Part shown: in pieces, positions 32,845 to 52,517 of the stretch
Position numbering within the stretch: the first letter of the stretch is position 1
Layout of the letters: the number at the start of each line of letters is the position of its first letter
Source: Mrakia gelida
Taxonomy: Eukaryota; Basidiomycota; Tremellomycetes; Cystofilobasidiales; Mrakiaceae
DNA: 64,000 nucleotides
Assembly (NCBI GenBank): GCA_024345305.1
Contig: BRON01000001.1
Location: forward strand, 3,100,001-3,164,000
Reading direction: 5' to 3'
Translations under genes and position numbers: made by a program
Notes under the pieces: generated by a model
Told to the model about the DNA's origin: nothing
The model's database searches: none
What the model saw: only the letters and a program-made list of their open reading frames with translations

Positions 32845-34758
32845 TTATTCCTCGTCGTCCTCAGCCGAGTTGATGAAGTCGCAGTACTCGTAGGACCAGT
32901 ACCTGATAACGATAATGGGGGTTGCTGTTAACGGGAGCCTCTGGCGTTTTGAGAGACGTTCGAGTGGACGGGCGAAGAAGGGAGAAGGAAAGATTCGCGA
33001 CTCGACTCGACCTGAGGAAAGAGCGGGAGGACTCACCACTGGTGACCCATAACCTTGATGGTGAGAGCGGGAGAGATAACCTCGTCCATCAAGTAGAGAA
33101 GTCGGAAGGAGGGGAACGCGATGGCGACTGTGTAAATCGAAAGAAAAGCGTTGTTAGCGATCCAATTTGTGGGGACGACCTGGTCGACCTCGAGTCTCGC
33201 CTAGACCTCTGAGAAGCACGAAAGACTCACCCAAGACCAACGCAGGGGTGATGGTCCAGATCAACTCAATGAGAGTTCCCTGTAGACGGAAGAAAGAAAG
33301 AGGAGTCAGTCGAGGGAGAGGAAGGGAGAGCGTCGACGCGTCGAACGTACGTGGTTGAGGTACTTGGAAGCGATGGGGTTCTTGCTGACTCGGAATCGGT
33401 AGACGATAGCGGCCAAAGCGTAGGTGACTCCGGTGACGATAGCGATAACGAAGTACATGACGGCGTTGTGAAGCTTTTGGAGGGAAGAGGAGGGGAGGGA
33501 GGGGGAAAGTCAGCGACCAAAAAGCGACGTCGCTCGTCCCGTTCGATCTCCCTAAGAGCCCTCACCTCAGTGATTCCTTCCATAGTAACGGAAGCACCGT
33601 CTTGGAAGCCGTACTGCCAAGGTTCCGGTGCGTCCAAATTGATCAATCCGAGCCCAGGAAGGGCCTGAGGAAGGAAGTGGGAGGAAGGGGGGCGGGAGGG
33701 AGGGAGGGGAGAGACGCGGATCGAGGCGAGGCGAGGCGAAGTTCGAGGAGCAGGACGAGAGTCGGAGGATTCAGGATGGGTTTGACGAGTCAAAGGAGTG
33801 GCGTGAGTAGTGTGAGGGAGAGGTGAGAGTGTGAGGTTCGAGATGGATGGAGTATGGTTGGTTGGCGAGAGGGAGGGAAGACGGAACGGACGAGGGAGAA
33901 GTTGTTTGGCGATCAGCTCGAGCTCGCGCGACGACGAAACTTTGCTTCAAATCTCGACTTACGGAGTAAGCGATCTGGTTCAACTTGGCTCCAGCGACCG
34001 AGGTAGTGGGAGCTCCCTTGAGAAGCTGGGAGAGGGCCTAGAGCGATTGGAAGAGGGAGGAAGAAGGCGAAAACAAAGTCAGCCCTTGGATCGTCCCGAG
34101 AGGCGAGACGAGGAGGATGAGAGCTAGTAATCCCTACAGACGTACCTTCTGGTTGACTCGAGCGGCCTGGAGAGAAGCGCTGGGAGATTTGATGAACTGT
34201 GAAGTAGCGTTCAAAGAAATGAGGTGATGCAGAGGGAAGGGAGGGAACGAAGAGACGAAGGACAAAAGGTGAGCTCGGGTTCGCCCGACGTCCCTCCCTC
34301 CTTTGCGACCTTCCTCGTTCTCTGACGGGCTCGAAACGACGTACCTGGGTTCCAACGAGCTCAATCTTGGAAGCCTGAAGAGCGCTGGAGTTGCTGAGAG
34401 ACTGAACGGTCCAAAAAGAAGCGAAACGACGTTCAGCATGTCGAAAGGAAGACGTTGGAAGACTCAAACGACGCCCGTTCCATTCGTTCCCCTCCCAGCA
34501 GACCCTCCTTTGCCATCCATCCATGCCCTTCAGCCAGCTAGACTCGAGTCGCGAAACTGGGATAGAAAGAGGAGGGGCTGAGGTCGAACGAACCTTGAAA
34601 GCAGAAGCGGATCGAAGGTGGGAAGGGGAAGCCGATGCCTGGAAGGTCGAAGAGGTCGACGCGAATCGAGCGAAGGGGGTGGAGAGGGTGTTGGATCGGG
34701 CGAGGGCAGCCAACGAGGTCCCTGGGAGCCTGCGAGCGATGAGAGGAGCGAAAGACAT
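32845..34758 (-). CDS. COX2A: nucleus-encoded N-terminal half of cytochrome c oxidase subunit 2 (COX2A-type)
   Basis: Subunit II of complex IV is normally one mitochondrially encoded chain with two membrane helices and a C-terminal Cu-A domain. Here the nuclear gene codes for about 255 residues: an Arg/Ser/Ala-rich presequence ([20 protein letters not shown]..., about 126 residues over four phase-0 exons), then [20 protein letters not shown], helix 1 ([20 protein letters not shown]), a loop, helix 2 with the conserved Glu ([20 protein letters not shown]), [31 protein letters not shown] and the short acidic end INSAEDDEE, stop 32845-32847. The Cu-A ligands (C-x3-C, H, M) are absent. Seven spliceosomal introns and standard codons rule out mtDNA. 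Helix 1 is fairly polar, as expected for an imported protein. It resembles split COX2A of chlorophycean algae and alveolates. One intron (about 33667-33962) is unusually long. Confidence 0.88.
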
Positions 34759-49773: not shown

Positions 49774-50119
49774 TCTCCCTCTCTTCTTCTCCGTCGCTTC
49801 GTTTCTCTCTCTTCTCCTCTCCATGGTCTCCCTGCATCGCGTTCTGTTCCTTTTTCTTCCTTTTGCATCGCCCTACCACCACAAGCCCATCGTCTCCTTC
49901 GCACTCTCGCTCACGCGCTCGTTCTCGGTCCTCGTCGCTCCTTCGTACCCTTCTCGGTCATGCATCCCCTTTCACTATACCTTCTTCACACGCACTTAAC
50001 CGAAACACATTTGCTTTATAACGACTCTCGCACCCTCTCTTCGTTTCTGGTACTCGAACTCGGAACCGTCTCGCTTTACCTTCTCGTCCTCTTTCTTCCT
50101 TCTTCACGAGCTGCGACGA
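49774..50119. other. intergenic region upstream of the UBE3D-like gene
   Basis: About 345 bp, T/C-rich on the + strand. Probable terminator of the upstream gene plus promoter of the next. No frame supported. Confidence 0.4.
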
Positions 50120-52517
50120 TGCTTCTTTTCACCCCCCCAACCTCCCCTTCAGTGGGGACGGACCCTCACTTCAGTCTTGCTGACCGCTCTCTACCCCTCA
50201 CCTCTCTCTCATCTTCGTGCTTTTGTCTTCTTCGTCGCTGCAGTTGGATCCTCCTCCTCAAGCTCTCGTCCGCCGTCGCGTCAAGTCGGATATCGCTACC
50301 TCGCCGAGTTCCAGGAGAGCATCCGCGTCGTTCAGGTCCATCTCGAAATGGAGGAGTTCGCCGCTGGAACGGAACTCGAGGTCGTCGTCGTTGAGGGAGA
50401 GCAGAAGGAGGTTCGGATCAGCTCGTCGAAGGAAGGCTGGGAGGTCAAGATCCCTCTTCCTGGATCGGCGCGTCCTCACTCGTCCAAGGTCATCACCACC
50501 GCCAGCAACCCATCTCCTACCTCGTCTACTTCCAAACACACCATCCCATCCTCAACCATCTCCCTCCGACTCCCCACCGAACCGTCGTCGTCCTCCTCGT
50601 CCTCCCAACCAACCTCCCCGCCTCTCTCAGCACCCTTCCTCGCCTCCCTCGCTCCCACCTCCCTAGCCTGCTCGACTTGCTCCACCCCCATCGTCAACAC
50701 CTCCCTCCTCCCCAACCCCCAAACAGCGTACAAGGATCTCCCCTCGGAACACTGGGAGGAGCTCGTCGGGAGCTGGCTCTGCCACGACGAGATGAAGCTC
50801 GCGCTTGGAGTCGAGGACGGCAAAGGAGGAGGAGGAGGAGGAGGGTTTTGGCCTAGGGAAAGAGAAGTGCTGGTCGGAGGGAACTACGTGCTGGTGGGGG
50901 ATGGGCTGGTGATCGGTAATGGGGTTTGGAAAGTGAGGGAAGGAGCTGAGGTGAGTTTCCTCGACGCGTCTCTCTTTTCCCTTTCTCTTCTTCTTCCTCT
51001 CTCTTTCCTCTCCTCTCTCCTTCCCCCCATCTTCCACCACGGATCCTCAAAAAGGCCGCCGTCCTTCCCATCCTTCCAACGGATGTTCCCCTTCTTCCAC
51101 CTCCCTTTTCTCTCATCCCGCAACCGAGAACCCTCGCTCGCTTTGGCTCCTTCTCCTTTTTATCCCTTCCTTGTCAAGACGAACCCCTCCGCTGGGTTTG
51201 TCCTCGTCTGGGAATGGAGTGGAGAGGGAGGACTATCGCGGGGTTTCGAGATCTTGGGAAGGGAGGAGGGAGGAGGTGTTTGGGTGGGTTGGGGATCGAA
51301 GGGAGTTCCGTGCTCCCTTCGCGCGGTCGATACCAAGGTCCAACAACATCGAGGGGAACGACACGTTCTTCTCGAATCCTTCTCACAACAAACTCTGCTG
51401 TCTCGAGGATCATAGACAGGAGGGCTACACGAGATGGGACATTTCATTCTTCGTTTCGTTTCGTTTCGTTTCGTTTCGTTTCGTTTCGTTTCGTTTCGTT
51501 TCGTTTCGTTTCGTTTCGTTTCGTTTCGTTTCGTTTCTTTTCGCACTCGCTTCTGTTCCCTCTTCTTCTCTCTTTCTTTCGTTCTTCGCGCACAACCTCT
51601 TTCTACTCACCGCCTTCGATAACACCTTACTGACACCCCTCTTCTTCCCTCTTGCGTGGCGCTGGCGGTGGTGTTCAAACAGTCGGAAACCTGGCAACCC
51701 ATCGAATGCTCGACGTGCTCGTCTCCGCTCGGTCGTCGGTTCAACCATCCATCGATACCGCCAACCTCGACGTTTAAGTTCCAGAAGTACGCGATCAAGC
51801 CCATCGGATCGTCCTCTTCTTCTTCTTTGTGAGTTTCTCTCCAGTCTCTCGTCGAACTCCACCGAGGAACGCGCGAAACTCGAGCTCGAACTGACATCGT
51901 CCTTCCCTTCTTCGTGCCTCGCAGACCGCCGCCACCAACCTCCCCCCTCTCAATCTTCATCGCTTCGGACCTTCTCGAACTCGCCGATGTCCACAGATGC
52001 TACCATTTCATCGTCTACTCGGAGGAGGAGCCGCTCGTACCGTTGATCTTGGTTCGTTCCTCTTCCTTGTCTTCTCCTGCGACGCACAACTAACCAATCT
52101 TCGATCTCTCGCGTTCACTCCCCAGATCTGGCTCCTCAACCCCTCCCTTCAAATCACCCTCGGCTCAATTTCCTCCTCCTCAATTCAAGAGGCTCGCGGT
52201 CCTTTCAGAGCAACCAAACTCATGTTTCAAACGAGTCCGTCGTTGCCCTCAACGTTCGTCCCTCTCTCCCTTCCTCCCTTTCCCATGCCTCCTTCTTCCC
52301 TACTCTCTCCCTTTCTCGCTTCTCTTCCTAACTCTCCCCTCCCCTCACTCGTCCCAACAGCATCCCACCCGCCTTCGACGCAGCAGAACCCCTTCACTAC
52401 CCTTCCTCGATCTGCACCCAACTCGCGAGCGAGCTCGAACGGAGTCACGCGTCGTACCCTGGGAGGAGCGGTGGAGGGATGATGGGCTTGAAGGGCGGGT
52501 GGCTGGAGAGGGGGTAG
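50120..52517 (+). CDS. UBE3D-like (HECT_2) E2-binding ubiquitin ligase
   Basis: The conserved domain starts YRYLAEFQESIRVVQVHLEM, then EVRISSSKEGWEVKIPLPGS, a Ser/Pro linker, ACSTCSTPIVN, and the family signature LPSEHWEELVGSWLCHDEMK, followed by LVGGNYVLVGDGLVIGNGVW. A 734-nt intron (50952-51685) joins GAE to SETWQPIECSTCSSPLGRRF, the C-x2-C...LG element, then STFKFQKYAIKPIGS, SDLLELADVHRCYHFIVYSE and IWLLNPSLQITLG. The last exon ends GGWLERG, stop 52515-52517. This is the UBE3D/E2C-binding protein fold (Pfam HECT_2), reported to bind E2s and cyclin B in animals. The start is uncertain: ATG 50120 followed by an intron to about 50244 is plausible but off phase by one; a run of C in exon 1 could matter. 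Confidence 0.75.
51451..51535. repeat. TCGTT pentanucleotide microsatellite, 17 copies
   Basis: Seventeen perfect TCGTT units inside the large intron of the UBE3D-like gene, bordered on the right by TCTTT. In the + frame it would read as repeated FRFVS, which is a translation artefact. Confidence 0.95.

Follow-up and report, generated by a model that had tools for sequence, protein, structure and literature searches.

Why should a nuclear contig of a basidiomycete yeast carry what appears to be one half of a mitochondrial gene? The catalytic core of complex IV consists of three subunits; COX2 is among them, and in fungi its gene normally stays in the mtDNA. Mrakia is a cold-loving genus of the Mrakiaceae (Basidiomycota, Tremellomycetes, Cystofilobasidiales). 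The locus considered here lies in a window of 64,000 nucleotides, the whole stretch of Mrakia gelida DNA that was analysed, on a contig of 3.25 Mb (C1), and it encodes the membrane half of COX2 only. Taking together the gene structures, the complementary halves, the retained ligands, the signature of selection and the lineage, all of which are observed in the genome, and the absence of cox2 from the mtDNA, which is taken from a published paper, we consider it very probable that in Mrakia the function of the mitochondrial cox2 has passed to two sorts of nuclear gene, of which COX2A encodes the membrane half and COX2B the Cu-A half.

In the spliced model, the window gene (COX2A-1) has nine exons and eight introns, all of them GT-AG and 71 to 298 bases long, and encodes 255 amino acids (Table 1). 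The first-pass annotation had counted eight exons, a number that the spliced model corrects. Its placement of the gene at 32845..34758 on the minus strand and its estimate of a leader of about 126 residues agree with the spliced product, in which 126 residues precede Asp127; in the mature chains 8ucj_b and 6hu9_b, residue 1 is the counterpart of this Asp. In a search of solved structures, the protein from Asp127 onward aligned with mature COX2 apart from a single gap of two residues; 8ucj_b was the best match (E 1.1e-42), and 6giq_b, which we take to be yeast COX2, was matched at E 2.3e-41. COX2A-1 covers 88 of the 88 positions of the Pfam family COX2_TM and retains the aromatic stretch WYWSYEY, whereas it reaches only positions 1-21 of the 120 in the Cu-A domain profile. 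It has no Cu-A ligands and ends in the short acidic tail SAEDDEE, so that the earlier description of a COX2 N-terminal half lacking these ligands and closing on a short acidic end is borne out. The Trp codons of the COX2A frame are TGG only; since the frame is open under the standard code, this is not counted as separate evidence.

Table 1. Coordinates of the COX2A-1 gene and its parts in the window.
Feature	Position	Strand	Basis or remark
COX2A-1 gene	32845..34758	-	Spliced model and Pfam COX2_TM, E 6.4e-32
Exons 1-3	34758-34594, 34401-34345, 34196-34146	-	Spliced model
Exons 4-6	34037-33963, 33664-33566, 33473-33351	-	Spliced model
Exons 7-9	33279-33231, 33127-33037, 32902-32845	-	Spliced model
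Exons 1-4, residues 1-116 of the ~126-residue leader	33963..34758	-	Spliced model
Exons 5-9, leader end and mature COX2A core with two helices	32845..33664	-	Spliced model, structure alignment, Pfam
Transmembrane helix 1	33399..33461	-	Bounds by eye
Tyr167	codon 33422-33420	-	Aligned with yeast Trp56; column count
Transmembrane helix 2	33090..33264; exon 7 (33264-33231) and exon 8 (33127-33090)	-	Bounds by eye
Acidic C-terminal tail SAEDDEE	32848..32868	-	Occupies the place where unsplit COX2 continues into the Cu-A domain

Elsewhere in the window, an ORF at 50000-51412 on the plus strand carries a HECT_2 (E2-binding) domain, and none of the eight other long window ORFs that were scanned matched a Pfam family at 0.001.

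The first-pass annotation had proposed that COX2B would be encoded elsewhere, in the mtDNA or the nucleus, and that the genome be searched for a Cu-A chain lacking the two helices. A profile search of the strain's own assembly (34,857,517 bases in 25 contigs) found one such chain, the sole Cu-A domain gene, at C6:205983-207318 on the plus strand of a 2.05-Mb contig. COX2B has six exons and five GT-AG introns and encodes 196 amino acids, which match positions 17-120 of the 120 in the Cu-A domain (E 1.1e-47) and have no COX2_TM match at 0.001. The ligand residues of the Cu-A center of COX2 occupy six positions, and all six are kept (H130, C165, E167, C169, H173, and M176). The profile ranges of COX2A (1-21) and COX2B (17-120) tile the domain, and the end of the former and the start of the latter both fall in the loop that leads from the WYWSYEY motif to FDSYM. 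The N-terminus of COX2B is presequence-like (MFASRLASVAKTVPARAFSSTPR...); after it comes a stretch rich in Ala and Gly that is weakly hydrophobic (1.35 as the mean of its best 15 residues). Both split genes belong to nuclear chromosomes (contigs C1 and C6, with GT-AG introns throughout), and the reading of the locus as part of a nuclear split COX2 is upheld by the presence of complementary COX2B and COX2A-1 genes in one genome. An ORF for mitofilin (MIC60) lies at C6:208495-210096, about 1.2 kb downstream of COX2B and on the same strand, making neighbors of two genes for the mitochondrial inner membrane.

Matches to the COX2_TM family occur at two places in the assembly, the window and C6:550856-551056. 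The second marks a paralogue, COX2A-2, with nine exons, eight introns and 264 amino acids, about 343 kb from COX2B. When the exon tables were compared by reading, seven of the eight intron positions proved to be common to COX2A-1 and COX2A-2, and the remaining one differs between the genes. At the DNA level the loci resemble each other in exons only: six of the seven blastn matches fall on exons 1, 4, 6, 7, 8, and 9, the seventh pairs 32 intron bases with a place outside COX2A-2, and exons 2, 3, and 5 gave no blastn match between the loci. Within a core of 138 codons, synonymous changes affect 52 of 93 sites and nonsynonymous changes 21 of 321 (Fisher p 7e-24), corresponding to a dN of 0.068 and a dS of 1.03 (NG86), while in the leader constraint is weaker than in the core (dN 0.257, dS 0.600). 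The COX2A paralogues are thus under strong purifying selection (core dN/dS about 0.07), indicating that both copies have long been kept as working proteins. An origin of the leader by exon duplication is not claimed. Exons 2 and 3 of COX2A-1 are weakly alike over a stretch of about ten residues (shuffle frequency 0.006) and those of COX2A-2 are not (0.676); for leader exons 3 and 4 the shuffle frequencies were 0.000 and 0.001, on short and biased sequences.

The arrangement extends to M. frigida, where both halves are annotated as separate proteins. COX2B is 95% identical over its whole length to M. frigida P0001 (annotated "Cupredoxin" / "cytochrome c oxidase subunit II"), and the core of COX2A-2 is 99% identical to M. 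frigida P0214 ("cytochrome C oxidase subunit II, transmembrane domain-containing protein"), to which COX2A-1 is only 89% identical. Since 362,040 bases is given as the longest contig for P0001 and P0214 alike, they probably lie on one contig, as COX2A-2 and COX2B do here. The tree placed COX2A-1 outside the pair formed by COX2A-2 and the M. frigida protein (100/79, just short of the starred level), suggesting that the COX2A duplication probably predates the split of these species. Among environmental records, P0019 resembles exon 4 of another species' COX2B (90% over 93 amino acids, with the match ending near the end of exon 4), and P0121 resembles the COX2A core with YEYC (78% over 123 amino acids). 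Judged by its sequence, P0121 is plausibly the COX2A of a third species; its C-terminus may run into an intron, and it is therefore not counted as a proven split gene. The likeness of both records to the Mrakia halves hints that other species may share the arrangement. Two further environmental proteins, P0007 (145 amino acids, contigs up to 21.7 kb) and P0009 (170 amino acids, contigs up to 9.0 kb), are Cu-A-only COX2 without the two helices; fragments, genes interrupted by introns and additional split cox2 genes are all possible readings of them.

These observations bear on the possibility that the window gene is no more than a nuclear relic of mitochondrial cox2 (a numt or a pseudogene), with the work being done by an intact cox2 in the mtDNA. 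Insertions of mitochondrial origin do seem to occur in this genome. A COX3 match at C8:1516680-1516850 (57 profile positions, E 5.2e-15) was rejected as a nuclear gene, being short, with two in-frame TGA codons and amid nuclear sequence, and looks like a numt-like mitochondrial insertion. Moreover, the strain's own mtDNA seems to lie outside the assembly, because profile searches of the assembly gave no match to the COX1 and cytochrome b families and COX3 is represented only by this short fragment. Within the 34.86 Mb of the assembly no intact cox2 was found, and the COX2_TM and Cu-A matches at E <= 0.001 comprise COX2A-1, COX2A-2, and COX2B only. Numts are characterized by a lack of spliceosomal introns, by the mitochondrial code and by relaxed selection, and COX2A-1 displays none of these. 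Its eight introns are all GT-AG, its frame stays open in the standard code, and it begins with a leader; COX2B complements it, its paralogue has diverged from it under strong constraint, and there are orthologues in M. frigida. Together with the reported absence of cox2 from the mtDNA of a conspecific strain, these points make a decayed copy extremely improbable.

The latter report concerns the linear, 20,924-bp mtDNA of M. gelida PAMC 26583 (PMC12749792, December 2025). According to that paper, cox2 is absent from this mtDNA and from those of M. robertii and Tausonia pullulans, its destination not being given, and nad3, nad4L, and atp8 are also missing from the mtDNAs of M. gelida and M. robertii (PMC12749792). 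The first-pass annotation had held that a complete mitochondrial cox2 would make the window gene a decayed copy; the M. gelida mtDNA is reported without one, in one conspecific strain and one paper. The gene list of that paper is untidy, in that a "cox6" is named and that, for cox3 and nad5, its section 8 records neither presence nor absence, and its main text does not use the word "split" and uses "transfer" twice, both times for transfer RNA (PMC12749792). Nevertheless, three mtDNAs reported to be without cox2 fit well with a complementary nuclear pair of COX2A and COX2B. Two mtDNAs of Filobasidium, which belongs to another, sister order of Tremellomycetes, are reported to carry cox2 (PMC9059411). 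Family searches of our assembly gave no match to nuclear nad3 or nad4L. Fungal atp8 had no match in the assembly either, a result that is uninformative since the same search had no match in any control genome.

Another conceivable origin of the split genes is horizontal transfer, the donor being an alga or an alveolate whose COX2A and COX2B were already nuclear. Consistent with such a source, chlorophycean algae have the same division into halves, and Polytomella has a similarly long leader on its COX2A. The similarity scores argue otherwise. COX2A reaches 143-150 bits against its three best chains, 115.5 against the split chain 9f5x_2B and 30.6 against the split chain 9fq7_4P, and COX2B reaches 148-156 bits against its five best unsplit chains, 129.7 against split 9f5x_2C and 127.5 against split 9fq7_4N. 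We take the best-scoring unsplit chains to be from yeasts and a plant, the 9f5x chains to be algal and the 9fq7 chains to be alveolate; with these assignments, both halves score higher against unsplit than against split chains and neither is closer to the algal split chains than to yeast-type ones. The best unsplit matches with a named source were Rhizoctonia for COX2B and Cryptococcus, Rhizoctonia, and Jaminaea for COX2A (64-68% identity); records under bacterial names (P0025 and P0046) were also among the matches, and red algae stood lower for COX2B. The identity of COX2A is 0.63-0.65 to five named basidiomycetes vs. 0.52-0.53 to two red algae. For COX2B the corresponding values overlap (0.63-0.68 vs. 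0.66 and 0.68), and this half therefore does not discriminate basidiomycetes from red algae by identity, a circumstance that leaves some room for transfer.

Trees, which hold no split algal or alveolate rows, point in the same direction as the scores. The tree of joined halves comprised 50 rows, namely three nuclear pairs, seven named rows and 40 of the 77 thinned rows from 125 full-length proteins, the 40 being chosen by COX2B search rank. In it the nuclear pairs united as a single clade (100/97), which grouped with the named basidiomycetes rather than with the red algae; the deeper forks were weak, the root was a midpoint and the bootstrap had not settled. Quick trees of the separate halves, built from all 77 thinned rows and rooted on red algae, placed each half with the five named basidiomycetes, in clades of 78 and 77 rows that shut out the red algae (local support 0.999 and 0.989). 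The nearest rows of both halves were P0051 and P0058 (support 0.76 for COX2A and 0.87 for COX2B, and 99/95 in the joined tree). These are unsplit environmental COX2 proteins on a long branch, perhaps unsplit relatives or perhaps drawn there by composition; that COX2A and COX2B have identical nearest rows is what a single split cox2 predicts. With both halves grouped with the five named basidiomycetes and apart from the red algae, in trees without split algal or alveolate rows, and with scores that favor unsplit chains, descent from an algal or alveolate donor is scarcely credible. An independent endosymbiotic transfer and split in the basidiomycete lineage, as the first-pass annotation had inferred, is the origin best supported by the sequence comparisons. 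Along this route, COX2A and COX2B would have gained N-terminal leaders of the mitochondrial kind as well as spliceosomal introns, and cox2 would have disappeared from the mtDNA.

The existence of two diverged COX2A paralogues raises the further possibility that the nuclear halves are expressed but do something else, for instance as an assembly factor or as an alternative subunit II specific to the cold, and that a standard COX2 persists undetected. We judge this to be very unlikely, given that all Cu-A ligands and the WYWSYEY stretch are kept, that the conspecific mtDNA is reported to be without cox2 and that the three genes are the only COX2 matches in the assembly. Replacement of the mitochondrial cox2 by the nuclear pair remains the preferred reading. 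The recognized difficulty for such a change is to import a protein with two helices.

The first 50 residues of COX2A-1 contain 20 Ser/Ala, five basic and no acidic residues, and exon 1 encodes six basic and no acidic residues. Taking the three genes together, the Ser/Ala-rich leaders have five, five and four basic and no acidic residues in the first 50. Calculated over residues 1-18, their helical moment ranges from low to moderate (0.24, 0.15, and 0.36), and by that measure the leaders are therefore not textbook presequences. Nuclear yeast Cox2 is reported to work only with a less hydrophobic helix 1, as in W56R, W56K, W56Q or V49Q/L51G (PMC11917479; PMC12005268). Yeast W56 aligns with Tyr167 of COX2A-1; COX2A-2 also has Tyr, as does human COX2 by published account (PMC12005268). 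The same column holds Trp in 258, Tyr in eight and Phe in one of 267 reference rows, which are COX2 proteins from similarity searches that span both helices, rows of <120 amino acids or with a short helix having been dropped. The mean Kyte-Doolittle hydrophobicity of helix 1 is 2.19 in COX2A-1 and 2.35 in COX2A-2; the reference rows average 2.48 (sd 0.17), and 14 of the 267 fall below COX2A-1 and 50 below COX2A-2. By a membrane-insertion scale, 253 of the 267 rows are more insertion-prone than COX2A-1 and 250 are more so than COX2A-2. Helix 2 is not lowered relative to these rows (2.23 and 2.18 vs. a mean of 2.22). The drop in helix 1 has the direction expected for import and is modest. At the yeast-W56 column, the environmental COX2A-like P0121 has His. 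The unsplit environmental proteins P0051, P0058, and P0078, the last of which resembles the other two by eye, have Tyr there and are possibly relatives in which cox2 was kept whole.

Given how well the genes are conserved, and that no other cox2 came to light, we infer that both are expressed and that the COX2A and COX2B precursors are made in the cytosol. COX2A would be imported through TIM23 by means of its long leader, the less hydrophobic helix 1 entering the matrix and being re-exported, whereas helix 2 would be arrested, giving an N-out/C-out topology. COX2B could reach the intermembrane space by its presequence and the Ala/Gly-rich, weakly hydrophobic stretch, which would act in sorting. 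The two proteins would then reassemble non-covalently into one subunit II, in which the electron path from Cu-A in COX2B would cross the COX2A/COX2B junction. It is conceivable that the acidic tail of COX2A and the Lys-bearing start of mature COX2B attract each other, as has been proposed for a wasp (PMC5374615).

A 2017 review places split cox2 in Chlorophyceae, in alveolates and, within the mtDNA, in Campsomeris wasps, and it states that recent functional transfers have been described in protists and land plants and not in animals or fungi (PMC5664110). Nuclear atp8 and atp9 have been reported in two Pleosporales (PMC7272585), and mitochondrial gene transfer as such is therefore not new in fungi. 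We found no report, in fungi, of the transfer of cox2 or of a mitochondrial gene in two pieces; within PMC open-access full texts, no split or nuclear cox2 of a fungus came to light, in keeping with the statement of the first-pass annotation that it knew of no fungal case. The arrangement itself is known; what is new to us is the lineage in which it occurs, its separate origin there, the presence of two COX2A genes and the leader of COX2B. More tentatively, and with rather less than even confidence, we suggest that all Mrakiaceae may have a complex IV with a nuclear, heterodimeric subunit II that arose independently of algae and alveolates, that COX2B may have a cleavable presequence and inner-membrane sorting of a kind undescribed for the algal protein, and that the two COX2A isoforms may give rise to different versions of complex IV, perhaps adjusted to oxygen or temperature.

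The Mrakia genes would add an opisthokont case of nuclear split COX2, in a culturable yeast and with the same two halves, to those of algae and alveolates, and they would account for the unexplained absence of cox2 from the mtDNAs of Mrakiaceae. Yeast Cox2 is a much-used test in allotopic gene therapy, and a natural example could serve as a guide to the importability of hydrophobic mitochondrial proteins, a question central to that field and to theories of mtDNA retention.

Among known systems, the closest likeness is to the chlorophycean algae Chlamydomonas and Polytomella, in which, as in Mrakia, COX2 is divided into a half with the helices and a soluble Cu-A domain, both nuclear. Polytomella Cox2a has a cleavable leader of 130 amino acids (PMC5855863), compared with about 126 in COX2A-1, a similarity in length that is convergence; the published proposal for the Polytomella protein is import via TIM23, with helix 1 re-exported by Oxa1 (PMC5855863). 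It differs in bearing a C-terminal extension of 20 amino acids (PMC5855863), where Mrakia COX2A has a short acidic tail only. Cox2b of Polytomella reportedly has no targeting signal of the cleavable kind (PMC5855863), whereas Mrakia COX2B appears to have a presequence. The lineage is different, the origin is separate by sequence, and Mrakia has two COX2A paralogues. In alveolates (apicomplexans, dinoflagellates, and Perkinsus) both halves are likewise reported to be nuclear (PMC5664110). That lineage is unrelated, and COX2A similarity is far lower (30.6 bits for 9fq7_4P, which we take to be alveolate). The scoliid wasps Campsomeris/Dielis share the domain division of Mrakia and, in one case, an acidic COXIIA end has been proposed to pair with a Lys-rich COXIIB start (PMC5374615); unlike in Mrakia, both halves lie in the mtDNA (PMC5664110; PMC5374615). 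The COX2 of legumes is nuclear with a long presequence, as in Mrakia (PMC12005268; PMC5855863), but was relocated as one unsplit gene (PMC5855863). Finally, allotopic yeast Cox2-W56R is made less hydrophobic in helix 1 at the very column of Mrakia Tyr167 (PMC11917479; PMC12005268). The yeast protein is engineered and unsplit and carries Arg, Lys or Gln at this position, whereas Mrakia has Tyr, a milder change.
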